Notes under the pieces: model-generated
Seen by the model: only the letters and a program-made list of their open reading frames with translations
Database searches by the model: none
What the model was told of the DNA's origin: nothing
Made by a program: the position numbers and the translations under genes
Assembly (NCBI GenBank): GCA_015222055.1
Contig: JADFUR010000080.1
Coordinates: 1 to 33,088, forward strand
DNA from: Bacteroidota bacterium
GTDB lineage: Bacteria > Bacteroidota > Bacteroidia > Bacteroidales > B39-G9
Reading direction: 5' to 3'
Length of the DNA: 33,088 nt
Part shown: positions 20,272 through 32,792 of the stretch, piece after piece
How positions within the stretch are numbered: the stretch's first letter is position 1
Layout: every line of letters begins with the position of its first letter

Positions 20272-20829
20272 GTGAATAGTATCGATTCTCACGATGATAA
20301 TTATTTAATTGAATTAGTTAAAAATGGAAATGATTCTGCTTTCACTTTTTTAGTTTCTCGGTACAAACATCAGGTTGCAAAAACTATTTTTGGAATGCTT
20401 GGTAATTGTGCCGAAGCAGATGATGTTGGGCAAGAAACATTTTTAAGATTTTATAAATCAATAAATAATTTTAGAGGAGATTCTCGTCTAGGAACATATT
20501 TAACAAGAATAGCAATTAATTTATCGTTAAACGAATTAAAAAAAAGAAAAAGAAAATATTTATTTTTTCATTTTGATAATGATGAAAATCATCTTGAGAT
20601 TGGTGATGTTAATTCAGATTTTGAAAAAAAAGACACAAAAGAAATTATTGATATGGCAATAAAAAATTTAACACCAGAATTTAGAAGTGTTATTATATTA
20701 AGATTGGTTAATGGATACTCAACAAAAGAAGCTGCTGAAATTCTCAATTTACCAATAGGGACTGTTCTATCACGTTTATCAAGAGCTCAAATAAAACTTA
20801 AAGAAGCATTGAAAAAATTAATCATTTAA
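20272..20829 (+). CDS. ECF RNA polymerase sigma factor (RpoE-like)
   Basis: 185 residues. Sigma region 2 (about 25-95) has GNCAEADDVGQETFLRFYKSI and the promoter-melting segment TYLTRIAINLSLNELKKRKRK. Sigma region 4 (about 125-180) has FRSVIILRLVNGYSTKEAAE and a helix-turn-helix ending LPIGTVLSRLSRAQIKLKEAL. The start is a GTG at 20272, 36 bases after a good -7 box; the next methionine is inside region 2. The following gene starts after two bases and encodes a membrane protein of anti-sigma size. The promoter may be autoregulated, which is typical for ECF operons but not shown here. Confidence 0.92.
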   Translation: MNSIDSHDDNYLIELVKNGNDSAFTFLVSRYKHQVAKTIFGMLGNCAEADDVGQETFLRFYKSINNFRGDSRLGTYLTRIAINLSLNELKKRKRKYLFFHFDNDENHLEIGDVNSDFEKKDTKEIIDMAIKNLTPEFRSVIILRLVNGYSTKEAAEILNLPIGTVLSRLSRAQIKLKEALKKLII

Positions 20830-22110: not shown

Positions 22111-22539
22111 ATGGAACAAAAAGACTATATATTAAGAGAGATTGATAAGATTGGAGTTATGTTGCGATATATACTTGCAAAATTAATTCCCATAAATTCA
22201 GTTAGAGAAAAAAACAATATCTCGGAAAATATTAATAACGAGCTTTTCGAGAATATTGGTTATGATATTAATTCTCTTTTAAAAATTTCAAAAAACGACT
22301 TCAACGATATATTTAAGTATAACAAAGGGTTTAATTTAGCAAATATTGAATTATTAGCTGAATTATTATACAATATTTCTCAAAAAGAGTCAGATAACAG
22401 CCAAAAAATTCTACAAAAATCACTTGAACTTTATGAATTTGTTAATGATTCCGGCAAAACTTTCTCGTTTGACCGAGAAAATAGAATTGATAAAATTAAA
22501 AACGAGCTTCACAATTGCACCAATAATCTTCATGACTAA
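22111..22539 (+). CDS. Small cytoplasmic protein of unknown function
   Basis: 142 residues, charged and mostly helical, beginning MEQKDYILREIDKIGVML. The opening resembles small Bacteroidota proteins of the DYxLRxIExLG kind (DUF6483-like), but the match is limited to that opening. There is no signal peptide. Its stop overlaps the start of the following secreted protein by eight bases (ATGACTAA), so the two are translationally coupled. The middle part (NIELLAELLYNISQ... KSLELYEFVND) looks like a TPR-like helical pair. Function unknown. Confidence 0.72.
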   Translation: MEQKDYILREIDKIGVMLRYILAKLIPINSVREKNNISENINNELFENIGYDINSLLKISKNDFNDIFKYNKGFNLANIELLAELLYNISQKESDNSQKILQKSLELYEFVNDSGKTFSFDRENRIDKIKNELHNCTNNLHD

Positions 22540-24142
22540 ATATTTAAAATTCATATTGCCTTTTATAATTTTTTTTACATCTCAGGGTGTAGCTCAAAAC
22601 TATAATTACAATTTTAAAGCCCTCGAAAAATCAATAAAAAAGAATCAAATATCATTCAAAAAAGTTGAAACCGGAAATATAGCAAACGATTTGGGATATT
22701 CACAAGCAATAGCTTGGGGCGATTTTAATAACGATTTGTATCCAGACATATATGTATCAAACAGTTGGATAAATGACAATAATCTTGTTTATTTAAATAA
22801 CACAGACGGTTCGTTTACAAAAATCGCAACAGGTATAATTGCAAATGATAACGGAAACTCTAATGGCTGCTCATGGGCAGATTATAACAACGACGGTTTT
22901 GTTGATTTATTTGTTTCAAATGTAAACAATCAAAAAAATTTTTTATATAAAAACAATGGAGATAGTACGTTTACAAAAATCACAACAGGAGATATTGTAA
23001 ACGACACAAACTGGTCTTATGGTTGTTGCTGGGGTGATTACGATAAGGACGGTTTTCCCGATTTATATGTTACTAACATTGGACAAAACTTTTTATACAA
23101 AAACATAAACGGTGAATATTTTAAACAAATTAACGAAGGCAGTATTGTAACTGATGATGCCTGCTCTTATGGCTGTTCTATAGCAGACTATAACAACGAC
23201 GGGTATTTAGATATTTTTGTAGCAAACTGGAATGGGAAAAATTTTCTTTATAAAAATAATGGCAATTTTTCTTTTTCAAAAATTAATGAATTTCCTTTTA
23301 ACACCGATTTTGAAGATTCAGAAGGAAGCTCTTGGGGTGATTTTAACAATGATGGTTTTATAGATTTATTTGTTACAAATGATGGTGTTAATTCTTTATA
23401 TCAAAATGTTGACGGACAATCATTTTTAAAAGCAACAAATACAATTCTCACAAGCACATCAAACAATTCTAATGGAACATCGTGGACAGATTTTGACAAT
23501 GATGGCGATTTAGATCTTTTTATTGCAAACGGAGGTAATCAAAAAAATCTTTTCTACATAAATTCAGGAAACGAAAACCATTGGATAAAACTGAAATTAA
23601 TTGGTATAACCGGAAACAAATCTGCAATTGGAGCAAAAGTAAAAATAAGGTATGGAAATAATAAAATACAATATCACGAAATTTCATCTCAAACAGGTGG
23701 TGGCTGCGGTGCTCAAAACGATTTAATTCAACACTTTGGTACCGGGAATTATCAATCAATTGAATCGTTGCAAATAGCATGGCCTTCTGGAATAATTGAT
23801 ACATATACAGATTTAAAGACAGACACATTAATTATAGTTAAAGAATCTGTTAATAATGGAATTCGCGATTTAGACGAAACAATTACTTTAGAACAAAATT
23901 TTCCAAATCCTTTTAACAATCAAACAACAATAAATATATCGACAAAAAAACCTTTAAAATTAACTCTTAAAATATATAATTCTAACGGGAATCTTATATG
24001 CTGTCCTCTAATTAATGACCAAATTAATGGTTTCAAACAAATTTATTTAGATTCTAATATCTTTATTTATTCAGGAATTTATTATTATGAGTTAACAACA
24101 AAAACTAACAAATTAGTAAAAAGCATGATGTTTATTAAATAA
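22532..24142 (+). CDS. FG-GAP/VCBS repeat protein with UnbV domain, T9SS-secreted
   Basis: 536 residues with a type I signal peptide (MTKYLKFILPFIIFFTSQGVAQ). Six FG-GAP/VCBS-type blades carry calcium-binding D-x-[DN]-x-D-G loops, for example WGDYDKDGFPDLYVTN and WTDFDNDGDLDLFIAN. These are followed by an ASPIC/UnbV domain (NHWIKLKLIG... GAKVKIRYG ... QIAWPSG), common beside such propellers. The C-terminus (from LEQNFPNPFNNQT) is a type A T9SS sorting domain, so the protein should cross the outer membrane and be attached to the surface or released. The longer frame from 22424 runs over the upstream gene; the ATG at 22532 gives a proper signal peptide. Such proteins often bind glycans or mediate adhesion; no enzyme motif is present. 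Confidence 0.88.
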   Translation: MTKYLKFILPFIIFFTSQGVAQNYNYNFKALEKSIKKNQISFKKVETGNIANDLGYSQAIAWGDFNNDLYPDIYVSNSWINDNNLVYLNNTDGSFTKIATGIIANDNGNSNGCSWADYNNDGFVDLFVSNVNNQKNFLYKNNGDSTFTKITTGDIVNDTNWSYGCCWGDYDKDGFPDLYVTNIGQNFLYKNINGEYFKQINEGSIVTDDACSYGCSIADYNNDGYLDIFVANWNGKNFLYKNNGNFSFSKINEFPFNTDFEDSEGSSWGDFNNDGFIDLFVTNDGVNSLYQNVDGQSFLKATNTILTSTSNNSNGTSWTDFDNDGDLDLFIANGGNQKNLFYINSGNENHWIKLKLIGITGNKSAIGAKVKIRYGNNKIQYHEISSQTGGGCGAQNDLIQHFGTGNYQSIESLQIAWPSGIIDTYTDLKTDTLIIVKESVNNGIRDLDETITLEQNFPNPFNNQTTINISTKKPLKLTLKIYNSNGNLICCPLINDQINGFKQIYLDSNIFIYSGIYYYELTTKTNKLVKSMMFIK

Positions 24143-24229: not shown

Positions 24230-25975
24230 ATGGTTTCTGATTATTACAGTTTTAAAGTAAACATTGTCGATAAAATATTTTATACAGAAGAAGGAAATCA
24301 ATTTCCAAAAACTGCAATTATAAGCTTATTTGACATAAACAATAAAGTCATCACTTCAAAAGATTTTGGTTATATCGACACTATCGACATCTATAATCAT
24401 ATTGACAAAAAAGAACCGTTAAATCTTGACTATTGCTATATCAAAAATTTTTCAATAACAACTTACCGTCGCTTACATTTATTGGACAAGAAAGACTATG
24501 TTTCAATAAAAAATATATCTGCAAAATATGCATTTTTCGATTCAAATTTCAGCATCGACTTTTCCTATATAAAAATCACTGATGGTGGCATGAACTTTAG
24601 CAACACTCACTTTGCCGAAGGCGACCTTAACTTTAGCAACACTCATTTTGGAAAAGATAAAACAGATTTTAGTTATTCTGTTTTTAGAAATAATAGAGCT
24701 GATTTCTCAAATACATTCTTTGGAAATAAGGGACTTAACTTCAAAAATGCAATATTTCATCAAGGAATTAAAGATTTTCAATATGCCGATTTTGGTAACG
24801 GCGATGCAATATTCACTAATACAGAATTCTCTGACGGCGATGTGTCATTTATTAACACTAACTTTAATGATGGAAATGTATCGTTTAAAGTAGCACGTTT
24901 TGGAAAAGGAAATATAGTTTTCCATTTTGCTAAATTTGGAAAAGGTCAAATCTCCTTTGAGAGGACTGAATTTGGTGATGGTAAAATTGATTTCCGAACA
25001 GTAGAATTCAATGAGGGTAAAGCAAATTTTAATCGTGCAAATTTTGGCGAAGGCGATATTAGCTTTGAAGCAAGTAGCTCATCGCAAGGAAAAATCACTT
25101 TTAAAAGAACTAATTTCGGAGAAGGCTCAATAAACTTTGAACTTGTTGAGTGTGAAAATACTGATGTCATTTTCGAAAAAGCAACTTTTGGACACAACGA
25201 TGTGTCTTTTTTTAATTCAAAATTCAATTTTCTGTCTTTAAAATCTTGTCACTTAGATGATTATCTTGATTTACGAGTAAAAAAATGTAATAAATTAAAT
25301 CTGGCAGACACTATTGCCAGAGATATTATTGATTTAAAACCATATAATTTTAAAGTAGATATAAACCGATTAAATCTCACAGGAATGAGATTATTAGGTT
25401 GCATTTATATTGATTGGTTTGACAATGATGTAAAACAAATTATTTACAGGCAAACAAACACCAGCTTTAAAGAAAAAGCCGATCAATTCAGAACCTTAAA
25501 AGAAAGCTTTAACAAAACAGGAGAATATAATGACGAAGACCGTTCATATGTTGAATTTAAAAGATGTGAAGCCAAGTCTAAACTACTTGAAACAAAAGAA
25601 AAAGGCAAACTAAAAAAAATTAACAGGCAAATAAGATACTGGATTCAATGGTTGACTTTTGATCAGGCTGGATACTACGCCACAAATCCTCTTAGAGTAC
25701 TAACTGCAATGGTTGGCGTATACATTATTTTCAGCTTATTATTTATAGTAATTTTTTACTTTGGGAATTCCGACATTCTTTCGGCAACAAACGCACCGGC
25801 ACTAAATCTTTTTGAACGATCATTTTACCATAGTGCAATAACTTTTTTAACTATTGGTTATGGCGACCACTATCCTATTGGATGGTCGCGTGTACTTTCT
25901 CCCATTGAAGGATTTGCAGGTATGTTTCTTATGTCGTACTTCACAGTTGCACTGGTTAGAAAAATTTTACGTTAG
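24230..25975 (+). CDS. Two-helix potassium channel with an N-terminal dodecapeptide-repeat domain
   Basis: 581 residues, no signal peptide. Residues 1-116 are a mixed, soluble region. Residues 117-332 consist of 18 gapless 12-residue repeats with consensus (G/x)-x-G-x-(I/V)-x-F-x-x-x-x-F, e.g. GKGQISFERTEF and GDGKIDFRTVEF. This spacing of aromatic residues suggests a solenoid related to pentapeptide-repeat helices. A linker with a coiled, basic segment (about 410-475) follows. The pore module has outer helix VLTAMVGVYIIFSLLFIVIF (near 502-525), pore helix and K+ filter TFLTIGYGDHYP (near 541-552), then inner helix GFAGMFLMSYFTVALV. It should form a tetrameric K+ channel with a large cytoplasmic repeat domain. 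No RCK/TrkA or cyclic-nucleotide domain is present, so gating is presumably by the repeat domain. It stands alone between T9SS cargo genes. Confidence 0.88.
   Translation: MVSDYYSFKVNIVDKIFYTEEGNQFPKTAIISLFDINNKVITSKDFGYIDTIDIYNHIDKKEPLNLDYCYIKNFSITTYRRLHLLDKKDYVSIKNISAKYAFFDSNFSIDFSYIKITDGGMNFSNTHFAEGDLNFSNTHFGKDKTDFSYSVFRNNRADFSNTFFGNKGLNFKNAIFHQGIKDFQYADFGNGDAIFTNTEFSDGDVSFINTNFNDGNVSFKVARFGKGNIVFHFAKFGKGQISFERTEFGDGKIDFRTVEFNEGKANFNRANFGEGDISFEASSSSQGKITFKRTNFGEGSINFELVECENTDVIFEKATFGHNDVSFFNSKFNFLSLKSCHLDDYLDLRVKKCNKLNLADTIARDIIDLKPYNFKVDINRLNLTGMRLLGCIYIDWFDNDVKQIIYRQTNTSFKEKADQFRTLKESFNKTGEYNDEDRSYVEFKRCEAKSKLLETKEKGKLKKINRQIRYWIQWLTFDQAGYYATNPLRVLTAMVGVYIIFSLLFIVIFYFGNSDILSATNAPALNLFERSFYHSAITFLTIGYGDHYPIGWSRVLSPIEGFAGMFLMSYFTVALVRKILR
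24578..25225 (+). repeat. Coding array of 18 dodecapeptide (36-base) repeats
   Basis: Each 36-base unit encodes one 12-residue repeat ending in Phe (two units end in Ser or Cys). The units run without a gap from residue 117 to 332 of the channel protein. At DNA level they have diverged, so the array is old and held by selection on the protein rather than being a fresh tandem expansion. A partial, irregular unit (SIDFSYIKI) precedes the first full one. Confidence 0.85.
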
Positions 25976-26078: not shown

Positions 26079-28913
26079 ATGAAAAAATTAATATTTAGCA
26101 ATCTATTTTTATTTATTTTCATACTTAATTCGTCAGTATTTAGTCAAAATAGCACGCTCTTTCAAAACTCAAAAAATACTCAAGCGAACAAGTATATTCC
26201 TAACACAATAATAATTAAAATTAAACCCAAATTCAGAAGCTTATGTACTAATAGAAAAATTAAAAGCAATGAACTTGAAAATCTTATAAAAACAATAAAA
26301 ACAACATCAGTAACAAAAAAATTTCCACAAATTCACGAGCCAAAACAAAAATTCGATAAAAACGGAAACAAATTAGTTGATCTATCATTAATTTATGAAA
26401 TAAAATATAAATCAAAAACTTCTATCAATAAAATTATATCTCAGTTGAAATCAAACGAGATTATTGAGTATGCTCAGCCTCATTATTTACCTAAACTTTT
26501 ATATACACCAAACGATTTATTAAATACAAATCAGTATTATTTAAATACAATTCATGCTTTTGAAGCGTGGGATATTAGCAAAGGCGACAGCACAATAGTA
26601 ATTGGAATTACAGACACCGGGGTAGATATTGACCACGAAGATTTAATTAATAACATATCTTATAATAATAAAGATTTAATTAATGGTGTTGATGATGATA
26701 ATGATGGATTTACTGATAATTTTAGAGGTTGGGATTTAGGCGAAAACGATAATAATCCACAAGTTGGCGACAATAAACACGGCGTTTATGTCTCAGGTAT
26801 TGCTGCTGCAAAAACAGATAACGGCACAGGCATATCCGGTGTGGGATTTAATACTAAATTTTTGCCTGTAAAAATATCAAATCAAAACGGAGAATTAACA
26901 ATGTCCTACGAAGGAATTATTTATGCTGCCGATCACGGTTGCTCAATAATTAACTGCTCATGGGGAGGTACTGTTAAAGATCAATATGGGCAAGATATTG
27001 TTAATTATGCAACGTTTAACAAAAACGCCCTTGTAATTGCAGCAGCAGGCAATAGCAATAACGACGACTTAATTTATCCTGCATCTTTTGAAAATGTAAT
27101 TAGTGTTGCCGGAACCGACGAAAATGATATTAAATGGACAGGCACATCTTCTGGTTCTAATTATGGAATTTATGTTGATATTTGCGCTCCCGGAATGTAT
27201 ATCTACACTACCGACAACAATAACAATTACATTAAAACTTACTGGGGAACTTCATTTTCGGCACCTATTGTTGCAGGTTGTGCTGCTATTGCAAAATCTT
27301 TTTATCCTGACTATACGGCTCTTCAAATAGGCGAATTATTAAAAGCTAGTGCAGATAAAATAGACGACAAACTCGGAAATATTCTATATCAACACAAACT
27401 AGGTTCTGGTCGTGTAAATCTTTTTAAAGCACTTAGCAATACTGCACAAACTTCAATAAATTTTGATAATATTTCTTATACTGATAATAATGACAATGAA
27501 TTTGTAGCAGGCGATACAATCTTAATCACAGGAATATACACAAGCTATCTTTCACAAGTATCGAACACAACTGTTACTTTAAGTTGCACATCAGATAATA
27601 TTGAGATTATTAACGACAATAATTATATTGACACATTAAATACTTTAGAAACAATTTCGAACCAAAACAATCCTTTTGCAATAAAGATATTACCTAATAT
27701 CAATTATGACGAAAACATAGTTCTAAGACTTAATTACGACTACGGAAATTATCAAAAAATACAATATATTGACTTTTATGTAAATCCATCATTCATAAAT
27801 ATTGACACAAATAATATATCGACAACAATTACAAGCAACGGAAATATTGGATTTACAAACACAGCTGAAAGAAGCGGAATTGGTTTTATTTATAAGAAAA
27901 GCGAAAATCTTATTTTTGAAGGAGGATTATTAATAGGTAATTCCGCACAAAATGTGACTAATTGCATACGTGGCAGTAATGATTTTGAAACAATTTCTTT
28001 GCCTTCAACAATAAGCAATAATCCTGCTGTTGATTACAGTATTCAAACAATTTTTAATGATGATAAATCTGATGATAGTAAACTTGGACTAAAAATCTTG
28101 CAAAATAATTACGCTTGGGATAATGAGGAAGATGCGAATTATATAATTTATGAATATCTAATTATTAACAAAAATGCTTTTGATATAACTAATTTATATG
28201 TAGGGCTATTTGCAGATTGGGACATCACTTTTTATAATAGAAACAGAATTGATTTTGACAAAGACTTGAATTTAGCATACACCTACAGCACACAATCACC
28301 GGTATATTACACAGGTATTCAACTACTTTCGGGCACACCTATTAATCACTATGCAATTGATAATATTGAAGGAGGAAATGGCGGAGTCGACATTACTAAT
28401 GGTTTCTCAACGGAAGAAAAATGGTTTACCATGACTAACGAAAGAAACACAGCAGGTAACAAGTCTGACACAAGCGATGTTGCTGATGTTTTAAGCACAG
28501 GTCCGTTTAATATAAATTCAGAAGATACAGTTAAAATTGCTTTCGCTTTAGTTGCCAATAATAATTTATACAATTTAAAAAACAGTGCTGTTTATGCACA
28601 AGAAAAATATTTCAATATATATAATCAAAATAATATTAATGATGCAAATAAAAATTTATTTGAGGCCATTGTTTATCCTAATCCAACAAATAAAAATACT
28701 GAAATTAAATTTTATTCAAGCAGTAATAAACCAATTGAACTAAAAATTATTAATTCAATTGGAAATACTATCTTTATAAAAAAGATAAATTATACTAAAA
28801 CAGGGAAAAACACTATAAAGATTAATACTTCAGAAATTAGCAACGGAATTTACTTCATTAAATTAAAAACAAAAAACAGAACAATTTCAAAAAAGTTATT
28901 GATTATTCACTAA
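26079..28913 (+). CDS. Subtilisin-like (S8) serine protease with T9SS sorting tail
   Basis: 944 residues. A signal peptide (MKKLIFSNLFLFIFILNSSVFS) is followed by a fervidolysin-like propeptide (to about 150; IIIKIKPKF, IIEYAQPHYLP). The catalytic domain (about 155-460) has Asp in IGITDTGVDIDHEDL, His in KHGVYVSGIAA, the oxyanion Asn in VIAAAGNSN and Ser in GTSFSAPIVAG. An acidic DDDNDGFTDN loop probably binds calcium. About 380 residues of beta-rich sequence follow, then a T9SS type A tail from IVYPNPTNKN to KKLLIIH. The protein is therefore expected at the cell surface or outside. It is the second T9SS cargo within 4 kb. It is single-gene by spacing, with the GC-rich octamer repeat just upstream. 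Confidence 0.92.
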   Translation: MKKLIFSNLFLFIFILNSSVFSQNSTLFQNSKNTQANKYIPNTIIIKIKPKFRSLCTNRKIKSNELENLIKTIKTTSVTKKFPQIHEPKQKFDKNGNKLVDLSLIYEIKYKSKTSINKIISQLKSNEIIEYAQPHYLPKLLYTPNDLLNTNQYYLNTIHAFEAWDISKGDSTIVIGITDTGVDIDHEDLINNISYNNKDLINGVDDDNDGFTDNFRGWDLGENDNNPQVGDNKHGVYVSGIAAAKTDNGTGISGVGFNTKFLPVKISNQNGELTMSYEGIIYAADHGCSIINCSWGGTVKDQYGQDIVNYATFNKNALVIAAAGNSNNDDLIYPASFENVISVAGTDENDIKWTGTSSGSNYGIYVDICAPGMYIYTTDNNNNYIKTYWGTSFSAPIVAGCAAIAKSFYPDYTALQIGELLKASADKIDDKLGNILYQHKLGSGRVNLFKALSNTAQTSINFDNISYTDNNDNEFVAGDTILITGIYTSYLSQVSNTTVTLSCTSDNIEIINDNNYIDTLNTLETISNQNNPFAIKILPNINYDENIVLRLNYDYGNYQKIQYIDFYVNPSFINIDTNNISTTITSNGNIGFTNTAERSGIGFIYKKSENLIFEGGLLIGNSAQNVTNCIRGSNDFETISLPSTISNNPAVDYSIQTIFNDDKSDDSKLGLKILQNNYAWDNEEDANYIIYEYLIINKNAFDITNLYVGLFADWDITFYNRNRIDFDKDLNLAYTYSTQSPVYYTGIQLLSGTPINHYAIDNIEGGNGGVDITNGFSTEEKWFTMTNERNTAGNKSDTSDVADVLSTGPFNINSEDTVKIAFALVANNNLYNLKNSAVYAQEKYFNIYNQNNINDANKNLFEAIVYPNPTNKNTEIKFYSSSNKPIELKIINSIGNTIFIKKINYTKTGKNTIKINTSEISNGIYFIKLKTKNRTISKKLLIIH

Positions 28914-30776: not shown

Positions 30777-31274
30777 TTATTCCGAGCTTGTATTTCTAAC
30801 CTTATTTGTATCAATAGCTTTCACAAACTTTTTAATATCTTTTTCTGTAAAATCACCTTCAATACTCATTACAATAAACGAATTTGATTCTTCAATTAGC
30901 ATTATTATTTCTGAAATTGAGTTACCATCGTCTCGTGCTTTAAAAATTATATCACTTGAGGAATCTGCAATTATCATCACATCTTTATACATTTCGCTTG
31001 GCAAATATTCATATAACATTGGCAGTAATGCGTTTGCAGAATCCTCAGCAATAAAAAAAGTTAAATTATCTATATCTTTTAAAAATTGCTTAAGCTCTTT
31101 ATCATCCTTCTTATTAATAAACATAGCCATTAAATCTGTTGGAAGTCTAAAATTAACTACATTCTCAGAACCTTTATATAACTTGTAGAATGAAGGATAA
31201 TCTTTTTTTTCATTTGATGCCATACAAGATGTATATATCAGCACTACTAATATTACGCTTATTATTTTTTTCAT
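30777..31274 (-). CDS. DUF4252 family lipoprotein
   Basis: 165 residues. MKKIISVILVVLIYTSC looks like a lipoprotein signal with cysteine at 17, although the residue three before it is Tyr rather than the usual Leu. The mature part has the DUF4252 layout: a helical LKQFLKDIDNLTFFIAED segment, YEYLPSEMYKDVMIIADSSS, then IIMLIEESNSFIVMSIEGDFTEKDIKKF near the C-terminus. The biochemical role of DUF4252 is not known. It is the last gene of the second ECF operon, 40 bases after a paralogue, and is probably exported to the periplasmic face of a membrane. Confidence 0.85.
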   Translation of the reverse strand: MKKIISVILVVLIYTSCMASNEKKDYPSFYKLYKGSENVVNFRLPTDLMAMFINKKDDKELKQFLKDIDNLTFFIAEDSANALLPMLYEYLPSEMYKDVMIIADSSSDIIFKARDDGNSISEIIMLIEESNSFIVMSIEGDFTEKDIKKFVKAIDTNKVRNTSSE

Positions 31275-31314: not shown

Positions 31315-31833
31315 TTATTCACGAATTTTATCTAAATGCTCAAAACCTTTAACATTCATTGTTTTTGACAGTTTTGATACTTGCCTCAAAGTAATATCTC
31401 CTTCTAAATAAATTAAAACAGGTTCAGGCGTTCCATATACAATCATTATAAATTCTGAAATTCTTTTACCTTTTTCATTTATTAAAAATTTAATGGTTTC
31501 TCTCCCCTCTTTTATTATCATCAATTCTTTGTAAATTGATTCTGGTAGCGTAGATAAAATTTCTTTTTCAAATTTAGTATCTGAGTTTACGTAAAAAGAA
31601 GAATCAACTGTTAATATTTTTATTGAAGTTAGATTTGAAGTTACTTCTTTAAAATCTTTCTCCTCTTTCTCATTGCTTATTTTTGAGAAAAGATCGAACA
31701 TATATTGTGTAATATGTACTGACGTATAGCCTTTTTCTCCCGAATGTTTATTAAAAAAACTATTAGCCGGTGTTTCCTGTGCCATTGTTAAAAATGGTAT
31801 TAACATTATGGCAATTAATATTTTACTTCTCAT
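31315..31833 (-). CDS. DUF4252 family secreted protein
   Basis: 172 residues with a type I signal peptide (MRSKILIAIMLIPFLTMAQ; likely cut before Gln). The body follows the same plan as the next gene: VTSNLTSIKILTVDSS, LPESIYKELMIIKEGRE, FIMIVYGTPEPVLIYLEGDITLRQVSKL. The two proteins are diverged paralogues. The start overlaps the end of the putative anti-sigma gene by 11 bases, suggesting translational coupling. In Bacteroidota DUF4252 genes often follow an ECF sigma gene with a small membrane protein, as here. Function unknown. Confidence 0.86.
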   Translation of the reverse strand: MRSKILIAIMLIPFLTMAQETPANSFFNKHSGEKGYTSVHITQYMFDLFSKISNEKEEKDFKEVTSNLTSIKILTVDSSFYVNSDTKFEKEILSTLPESIYKELMIIKEGRETIKFLINEKGKRISEFIMIVYGTPEPVLIYLEGDITLRQVSKLSKTMNVKGFEHLDKIRE

Positions 31834-32299
31834 TTTCTTTCGTTTTAATTAATAATTCTGATTTGTTAAACTGACTTAATTTGTTTAAATTTTTTGTACC
31901 GTTATTAAAATTTTGCGCAACGGCAAATAAAGCTTGTTTTGTGTATTTTTCAGCTATTGCTTTATCGGTAATAGCCTGGCCATTATAATATGCATATATT
32001 ATTTTATTCCTTTTTGTATCCATTTTCGGAAAAATTACAAACATTGAAATTATCAAACTTGCAGCAATTCCTGTGATATATATATATCGTTTTATATTTC
32101 TTTTTGGCAGATGTATCTTTTTGTGAAATTTTATTGATTTTTCTTCATTAAAAGCTTTAAATATTGACTTAGCAAAAATTAAATTTTCAGGGATATCTTT
32201 GTTATTGCTAAAAAAAATTCTCAATTCATTTTCTTCGGCAATACTTGTTTCTGCCTCAAAATATTTATTTAACAGATTTTCTATTCTTTTAAAGTCCAT
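31823..32299 (-). CDS. Membrane protein, putative anti-sigma factor of the second ECF unit
   Basis: 158 residues. A cytoplasmic N-terminal part (1-66; MDFKRIENLLNKYFEAETSIAEEN resembles the N-termini of Bacteroidota anti-sigma and FecR-like proteins), one membrane helix near 69-88 (YIYITGIAASLIISMFVIF) and a periplasmic tail of about 70 residues. It overlaps the ECF gene by 11 bases at its start and the first DUF4252 gene by 11 bases at its end. There is no zinc-binding ZAS motif. Role inferred from topology and place. Confidence 0.72.
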   Translation of the reverse strand: MDFKRIENLLNKYFEAETSIAEENELRIFFSNNKDIPENLIFAKSIFKAFNEEKSIKFHKKIHLPKRNIKRYIYITGIAASLIISMFVIFPKMDTKRNKIIYAYYNGQAITDKAIAEKYTKQALFAVAQNFNNGTKNLNKLSQFNKSELLIKTKENEK

Positions 32300-32792
32300 A
32301 ATTAATTGTTTTAATTAATTCTTGCTTTACAGCTTTTCGTGCTCTCGACAAACTAACTCTCACTGCATTTATATCAATTCCTGTAAGTTCAGATATTTCT
32401 TTAAATTCATAAGCTTCAATATCACGCAAATGAATTATTATTCTTTGTTTTTCGGGCAATTGAGCGATTAGTAACTTTATTTTATCAGAAATATCTTTTT
32501 CTTCATTTTTAGGCTCTATTGAATTATTATGCAAGGATTTTAATTCTTTAAAGCTATTTATAACAACATTCTTATGTTTGATCTTATCAAGGCATAAATT
32601 TTTTGTTGAACGCATTAAAAAGGATTCTATATTTTCATATTTATCAATCCATTCTTGATTTAGCCAAAGCTTTTCGAAAATATCTTGAGTAACATCTTCG
32701 GCTTCAGCTTCATCTTTTAAGATTGCTCGAGCAAACCTAAAAATTTTATCTTTCAACAAAGTAACAATATTCTTATAGTCTCTTTTAATCAT
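32289..32792 (-). CDS. ECF RNA polymerase sigma factor
   Basis: 167 residues. Region 2 has LKDEAEAEDVTQDIFEKLW and the IESFLMRSTKNLCLDKIKHK segment. Region 4 has LPEKQRIIIHLRDIEAYEFKEISELTG and a recognition helix ending INAVRVSLSRARKAVKQEL. The ATG at 32792 gives the usual short N-terminus MIKRDYKNIVTLLKDKIF. First gene of a four-gene operon with a membrane protein and two DUF4252 proteins. It is clearly diverged from the ECF factor at 20272-20829, so the two operons answer different signals. No consensus promoter was seen upstream, which would fit autoregulation by its own sigma factor. Confidence 0.93.
   Translation of the reverse strand: MIKRDYKNIVTLLKDKIFRFARAILKDEAEAEDVTQDIFEKLWLNQEWIDKYENIESFLMRSTKNLCLDKIKHKNVVINSFKELKSLHNNSIEPKNEEKDISDKIKLLIAQLPEKQRIIIHLRDIEAYEFKEISELTGIDINAVRVSLSRARKAVKQELIKTINYGL

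Follow-up and report, generated by a model that had tools for sequence, protein, structure and literature searches.

A potassium channel-type pore preceded by a predicted beta-solenoid of twelve-residue repeats in Bacteroidota

The stretch of DNA analysed here (the window, 33,088 nucleotides of contig JADFUR010000080.1 in the Bacteroidota assembly GCA_015222055.1) contains a gene whose product ends in a K+ channel pore and carries, ahead of it, a long array of twelve-residue repeats and a conserved linker. Judged by its sequence, this is a real, selected protein, and we give somewhat better than an even chance to the reading that it is a ligand-gated K+ channel, in which an N-terminal sensor would be joined through the linker to the pore with a logic like that of HalA, probably as a stand-alone chromosomal protein and not as part of a Hailong pair. 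HalA is described, in the accessible parts of four articles, as the DNA-regulated channel of the Hailong anti-phage defence, which is blocked by a DNA signal (PMC13275509, PMC12657230, PMC12265719, PMC12657218). The architecture is not new in kind: proteins made of repeats, linker and pore are already in databases, and the structure of HalA has been solved (PDB 9nyi, HalA bound to oligodeoxyadenylate according to the PDB title). The original prediction had allowed that its exact architecture might prove to be an already described channel class, and these precedents come near to that without coinciding with it.

Parts of the protein and the twelve-residue repeat

The gene, which starts with ATG, encodes the parts collected in Table 1. 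The K+ pore with a TIGYGD filter and two flanking helices, as originally predicted, was borne out by the match of Pfam Ion_trans_2 (PF07885) to residues 500-579 (39.9 bits; curated cut-off 22.5), a match found in 16 of 16 members of the family, and by the helices of the structural model. The absence of the usual gating domains was likewise upheld, as no other domain exceeded its curated cut-off in Pfam or NCBIfam, the latter giving only weak channel matches, far below cut-off. The N-terminal cap (residues 1-104) had no Pfam match. This cap, the post-solenoid part (333-395) and the conserved linker (about 412-450), all lying outside the repeats, together with the position of the pore as the last part of the protein, go beyond the original prediction.

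Table 1. Parts of the channel gene and their positions in the window
Feature	Residues	Positions	Strand	Basis
Whole gene: K+ channel of (predicted) solenoid, linker and pore	581 aa	24230..25975	+	
N-terminal cap, folded from strands and two short helices	1-104	24230..24541	+	AlphaFold2 model
Array of 18 gapless 12-residue units	117-332	24578..25225	+	Register, self-similarity, predicted strands
Post-solenoid part, with conserved D347, R349, R364, D365, D368, R387, D395	333-395	25226..25414	+	Model and alignment
Helical linker	396-480	25415..25669	+	Model and alignment of 43
Outer pore helix (TM1)	487-511	25688..25762	+	Pfam and model
Pore helix	527-541	25808..25852	+	AlphaFold2 model
Selectivity filter TIGYGD	541-546	25850..25867	+	Sequence, 43-member alignment
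Inner helix, with invariant G564 and protein end V-R-K-I-L-R	553-581	25886..25972	+	Model helix 553-580; alignment

Conservation was assessed in an alignment of 43 rows that included the window protein; L015, whose gene is split by a stop, was left out, as were L086 and L087, which share their contigs with L003 and L004. A further alignment (A4) joined 29 of the 43 members with four distant proteins. In all 43 members two membrane helices enclose a T-x-G-[YF]-G-[DE] filter (TIGYGD in 29, TVGYGD in six, TIGYGE in four, and TIGFGD and TVGFGD in two each), and every sequence ends in R-K-[IV]-L-R, with no cytoplasmic tail after the inner helix. The linker has the conserved core Q-F-R-x-L-K-E ... 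G-x-Y-x-D-E-D-x-x-Y ... K-R-x-E, and in its stretch from 412 to 450, 11 of the 39 positions are at least 95% conserved among the 43 sequences.

The repeat array keeps an exact 12-residue register from residue 117 to 332, with the unit consensus G-x-G-x-[VI]-x-F-x-x-x-x-F, and residues 105-116 form a further in-register unit, so that 19 can be counted by the F pattern. For residues 105-338, BLOSUM62 self-similarity at lag 12 was 1.61 (z = 14.6 against 300 shuffles, the best of which reached -0.36). The reading frame stands where it had been placed, and the 18 gapless units that had been proposed are confirmed. Values at lags 24, 36 and 48 were similar to that at lag 12, lag 20 gave -1.40, and the value at lag 5 (-0.18) exceeded the shuffles (z 3.6), which reflects the spacing of 5 between the F residues within a unit. 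In the DNA itself the repeat shows weakly, with only families of two to three copies and no 36-base tandem array reported.

Measured from one fixed anchor to another, the array runs to 16, 17 or 18 twelve-residue steps: the anchor-to-anchor distance is 216 residues in 16 of the 43 members (within 1), 192 in 25 (within 2) and 204 in two, so that the count is 16 or 18 (within 2 residues) in 41 members, and 17 steps occur among the 43 in two Clostridium members only. Two relatives have much longer arrays of 12-mers (L104 and L107, with open frames of 677 and 666 aa), so that array length can evolve; L104 has 85 residues more between the anchors than the window protein, and its array seems to be about seven units longer. 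The idea that pairs of units are the evolving unit was rejected in view of the 17 steps in two Clostridium members and of the approximately seven extra units of L104. Since odd numbers of steps exist, changes in array length do not establish the 24-residue coil considered below, for which the evidence is the predicted strands.

Predicted fold, pentapeptide proteins and HalA

An AlphaFold2 model of the full protein, built with 16 sequences, reached a mean pLDDT of 89.2. The ten-residue means were at least 92 across the solenoid and in nine of the ten blocks of the cap (residues 1-104); pLDDT was 86-94 for residues 411-450 and 64-85 for the pore, and the placing of the solenoid relative to the pore is unreliable because residues 451-490, just before the pore, are poorly predicted (59-65). 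The linker was modelled with helices at 401-406, 413-430, 433-454 and 460-479. Within the array, four short strands are predicted per 24 residues, one about every six, with a strand autocorrelation of 0.73 at lag 24, 0.37 at lag 12, 0.38 at lag 6 and -0.14 at lag 20. The model suggests that two 12-mers would make one four-sided coil with six-residue sides, that is, an enlarged pentapeptide coil. The period of 12 given in the original prediction therefore stands for the sequence repeat and not for the predicted coil, which spans 24 residues, or two repeats.

The presumed relationship with pentapeptide repeats gained support from the regularity of the predicted strands, four short ones in each predicted coil, and from the Pfam profile Pentapeptide_3 (PF13576), to which the repeats of some family members match. 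This profile was found at E <= 1 in seven of 16 members (best 8.3e-14), whereas hmmscan of the window protein did not report it at that threshold, and in a six-frame search its cut-off of 27 bits was exceeded (27.9 and 30.1) only when neighbouring stretches were added. Pentapeptide proteins have a period of 5 and 20 residues per coil, whereas the window protein has a period of 12 and 24 residues per predicted coil. A pentapeptide repeat protein is defined, in the accessible part of PMC8145042, by at least eight contiguous five-residue repeats, which build four sides of five; the window protein, with its period of 12, falls outside that definition. In structural comparisons with VIA-align, the full model retrieved long beta-helices first (tailspikes and lyases, up to Z 22.9), and in Foldseek the pentapeptide proteins AhQnr and AlbG appeared among the weak rows (E 0.013 and 0.025).

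In Foldseek, the best match among solved structures was HalA. With the full model, Foldseek placed it (9nyi_A) at rank 1 (E 1.1e-3, probability 1.00), and with a second model of residues 262-581 alone (mean pLDDT 83.5) it again ranked first, with an E value of 7.8e-6 against 5.4e-3 for the next row, an almost 700-fold difference; that alignment had 354 columns, the HalA chain having 333 residues. VIA-align paired positions 3-320 of the second model with HalA 43-356 (Z 10.7, 269 aligned residues, rmsd 13.3 A, 13% identity), so that the two are collinear from the solenoid to the last residue. Across comparisons, identity was 12-13% and rmsd 10-13 A, and because the Z score of HalA ties with those of pore-only (and also pentapeptide) rows, weight is given to the collinear coverage and not to the score. 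HalA was absent from the best 50 VIA-align rows for the full model and from the matches listed in the sequence searches (the best 60 in some), and a profile of the N-terminal region gave one chance match at E <= 10. The predicted fold follows that of HalA collinearly over nearly all of the HalA chain, and both proteins close with a K+-type pore; the window protein differs in having a longer solenoid of 12-residue units and an extra N-terminal cap. The DNA-binding part of HalA is reportedly named the crown domain.

Several other proteins share the repeats, the pore or both. A plasmid search with linker and pore alone (E <= 0.1) yielded 18 records (15 haloarchaeal, two from Rhizobiaceae and one from Aeromonas), and for 16 of the 18 the annotation reads pentapeptide repeat-containing or potassium channel family protein. 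In the haloarchaeal and Aeromonas proteins L054-L057, as in the window protein, repeats are followed by a linker, which aligns in part, and by the pore, with which the protein ends, but their repeats are of five residues or irregular, and identity in the linker-pore part is 21-26%. A phage search with the Aeromonas protein gave 221 records, and among the 30 listed none was annotated as a channel, most of the annotated ones being pentapeptide or hypothetical proteins. When plasmids were searched with the full protein, the repeat in Streptomyces accounted for most matches (60 of 65 records). One of these, a plasmid 'pentapeptide repeat-containing protein' (L019/P0002), has the 12-residue repeat and matches PF13576 at 100.7 bits, but lacks any ion-channel match. 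Streptomyces plasmids carry several genes with this annotation that match the repeat (L019:1344-2990 and others); as many as 10 places matched in one Streptomyces record of those listed, and 11 in one from Nocardiopsis. The pore domain is common to KcsA, KirBac and other two-helix K+ channels, in sequence as in fold; in KirBac a cytoplasmic domain forms the C-terminal part, whereas the window family has nothing after the inner helix. Literature on pentapeptide repeats with channels, on the Pfam name and on the coil, drawn mostly from outside subscription journals, provided no paper describing the architecture; in the accessible parts of PMC9009326, PMC11237479, PMC12419801 and PMC11953307, the search words stood in unrelated places.

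Proposed gating of the pore

According to the reading that we favour, the protein would be a two-transmembrane, K+-selective and presumably tetrameric channel, whose sensor would be a large N-terminal region, on the cytoplasmic side, composed of the cap, a four-sided beta-solenoid with two 12-mers per coil and the post-solenoid part. A cytoplasmic ligand or partner would bind to this region, and the conserved helical linker would pass the binding signal to the pore helices, causing the gate to open or to close. The polarity could be either: the ligand may keep the channel shut, as it does in HalA, or may open it. As no tail follows the inner helix in any of the 43 members, any force that gates the channel from the cytoplasm would have to act from the N-terminal side, and HalA, with its DNA ligand, provides a structural precedent that makes gating by a ligand, as originally suggested, a plausible idea. 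Gating by the membrane or by the filter itself could also occur.

A possible reading, although an unlikely one, is that the solenoid acts as a scaffold or anchor: by attaching to a protein, membrane or filament it would do no more than place the pore, and the pore would gate itself through voltage, pH, lipid or the filter. Solenoids are often binding scaffolds, and such a use agrees with non-core positions that vary while the core F are fixed (mean majority fraction 0.46 at non-core, non-G positions of the solenoid and 0.88 at core F) and with an array that varies from 16 to 18 steps and is longer still in L104 and L107. The distribution of conservation along the 43 members, on the other hand, suggests mechanical coupling through the conserved linker, since the mean majority fraction is 0.69 for linker residues 412-450, 0.75 for the stretch ahead of the outer helix (477-492) and 0.76 for the filter together with the inner helix (530-581); it is 0.56 for the solenoid, a value lowered because two units are missing from most members, and 0.45 for the cap (1-104), the least conserved of the regions compared. 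HalA, the fold match, also argues against a purely positional role, given that its channel is blocked by a DNA signal.

A broader version of ligand gating, which we regard as improbable, would make the family a set of stand-alone channels in which a nucleic acid or nucleotide, bound to the 12-mer solenoid, controls the gate, and would make HalA a defence offshoot of a wider and older class of solenoid-gated channels that extends over Bacteroidota, Clostridium, Aeromonas and haloarchaea. The favoured ligand-gated reading is limited to a protein that would work like HalA in its arrangement; the similarity is a predicted one, and the protein is probably not a Hailong component.

Distribution, gene neighbourhood and meaning

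A scan of genome contigs found 16 related loci, 14 of them in Bacteroidota records or groups within this phylum and two in Clostridium (about 35% identity). Profile searches matched five of six genomes of the window's family, its own included, and 28 of 395 genomes of its class, in 26 of which (again counting its own) the match was whole or nearly whole, in one or two pieces, and in two short; in a phylum-wide sample, the only match among 395 genomes was the window's own. In the Clostridium class, two of 291 genomes matched, namely C. manihotivorum and one with a broken relative. A Clostridia-class relative (L090:1072-2643) consists of two open frames with one stop inside the match, which may reflect a broken gene or an assembly error. 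Linker and pore, used as the query against 60 close relatives, found matches in 16, of which 12 were strong (E below 1e-60). The window's own genome contains, on another contig (C97), a second and diverged protein with solenoid, linker and pore (L024:7-1662) and the unusual filter TLGFGA, for which BLASTP matched the linker and the pore (E 4e-5 and 2e-7); by eye, its repeats are irregular and a long insert lies between the membrane helices. In a related genome, a 448-residue open frame (L112) has irregular repeats followed by a pore with the filter TIGYGD, a further variant of this architecture.

In the window, the channel gene lies between genes for a secreted FG-GAP/ASPIC-UnbV protein (22424-24142) and a secreted subtilisin-like S8 protease (26079-28913) on the same strand, at distances of 87 and 103 bases, both of these secreted proteins bearing type IX sorting tails. 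Elsewhere in the window, two open frames (30777-31274, DUF4252, and 31315-31833) fall into one cluster and look like a tandem duplication, and the frame at 32289-32792 clusters with the sigma-factor frame at 20272-20829. Neighbours were picked around 44 loci; out of 84, one of over 1,300 aa and one channel fragment were left out and 82 were scanned. Na+/H+ exchangers and TerC account for four each, and the neighbour cluster met most often, that of a PD-(D/E)XK protein, presumably AddB-like, has its gene upstream of the channel gene in 12 loci (L005-L008, L010-L014, L016, L088 and L089). In nine of these it immediately precedes the channel gene, on one strand with it and at a distance of 22 to 367 bases; shared transcription is possible. 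As these three kinds of neighbours are each confined to few loci, the neighbourhood was rejected as a functional clue. The protein would probably be a stand-alone chromosomal channel serving ion homeostasis or stress, the homeostasis role being suggested by a few of the neighbours.

The AddB-like gene bears on a very improbable reading, that of a stand-alone sensor of DNA damage or DNA ends, linked to the AddAB nuclease-helicase and responding to single-stranded DNA products, which would fit with the recurrent upstream position of that gene and with the binding of DNA by HalA, as stated in the title of 9nyi. This gene, however, adjoins only members that are 50-55% identical to the window protein (all 12); it was not seen in lineages outside this band (by lineages, identity bands are meant), where some contigs end near the gene, and it is absent beside the window gene, the only PDDEXK_1 match of that genome being on another contig. 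Nor could a basic stripe be demonstrated on the solenoid. Its net charge is acidic (median -8, range -15 to 3 in the 43 members), and although basic residues are conserved on it (R245, R256, K264, R269, K288 and K292), a stripe for DNA was rejected as their stacking is within chance (permutation p = 0.11 to 0.24).

That the protein is a true HalA, in other words an anti-phage effector that is kept closed by the oligodeoxyadenylate of the nucleotidyltransferase HalB, is very improbable, for even though HalA is the best whole-chain match in Foldseek and the distribution is patchy (26 of 395 class genomes, and only the window's own among 395 phylum-wide), no nucleotidyltransferase Pfam family was found in nine scanned open frames of the window (two of them without any Pfam match) or among the 25 listed of the 75 families in the 82 immediate neighbours of the 44 loci (a search by Pfam, without a HalB sequence), phage collections gave no match to the family, none of 284 candidates in viral contigs was confirmed, and PADLOC, with a library of 2023 that may predate Hailong, gave no match in four members. 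Two short window frames weakly matched PADLOC CRISPR models (E 0.012 and 0.0074), and these were taken as chance.

Considered as a stand-alone channel with a ligand-binding N-terminal region, the family provides material for studying how gating of a K+ pore by a beta-solenoid can work. If solved, the four-sided 24-residue coil made of two 12-mers would extend the design of pentapeptide solenoids. In the accessible parts of PMC13275509, PMC12657230, PMC12265719 and PMC12657218, HalA is treated within a single defence system; a family that resembles it in predicted arrangement, and beside whose genes no partner was seen, could show the origin of such sensor channels.
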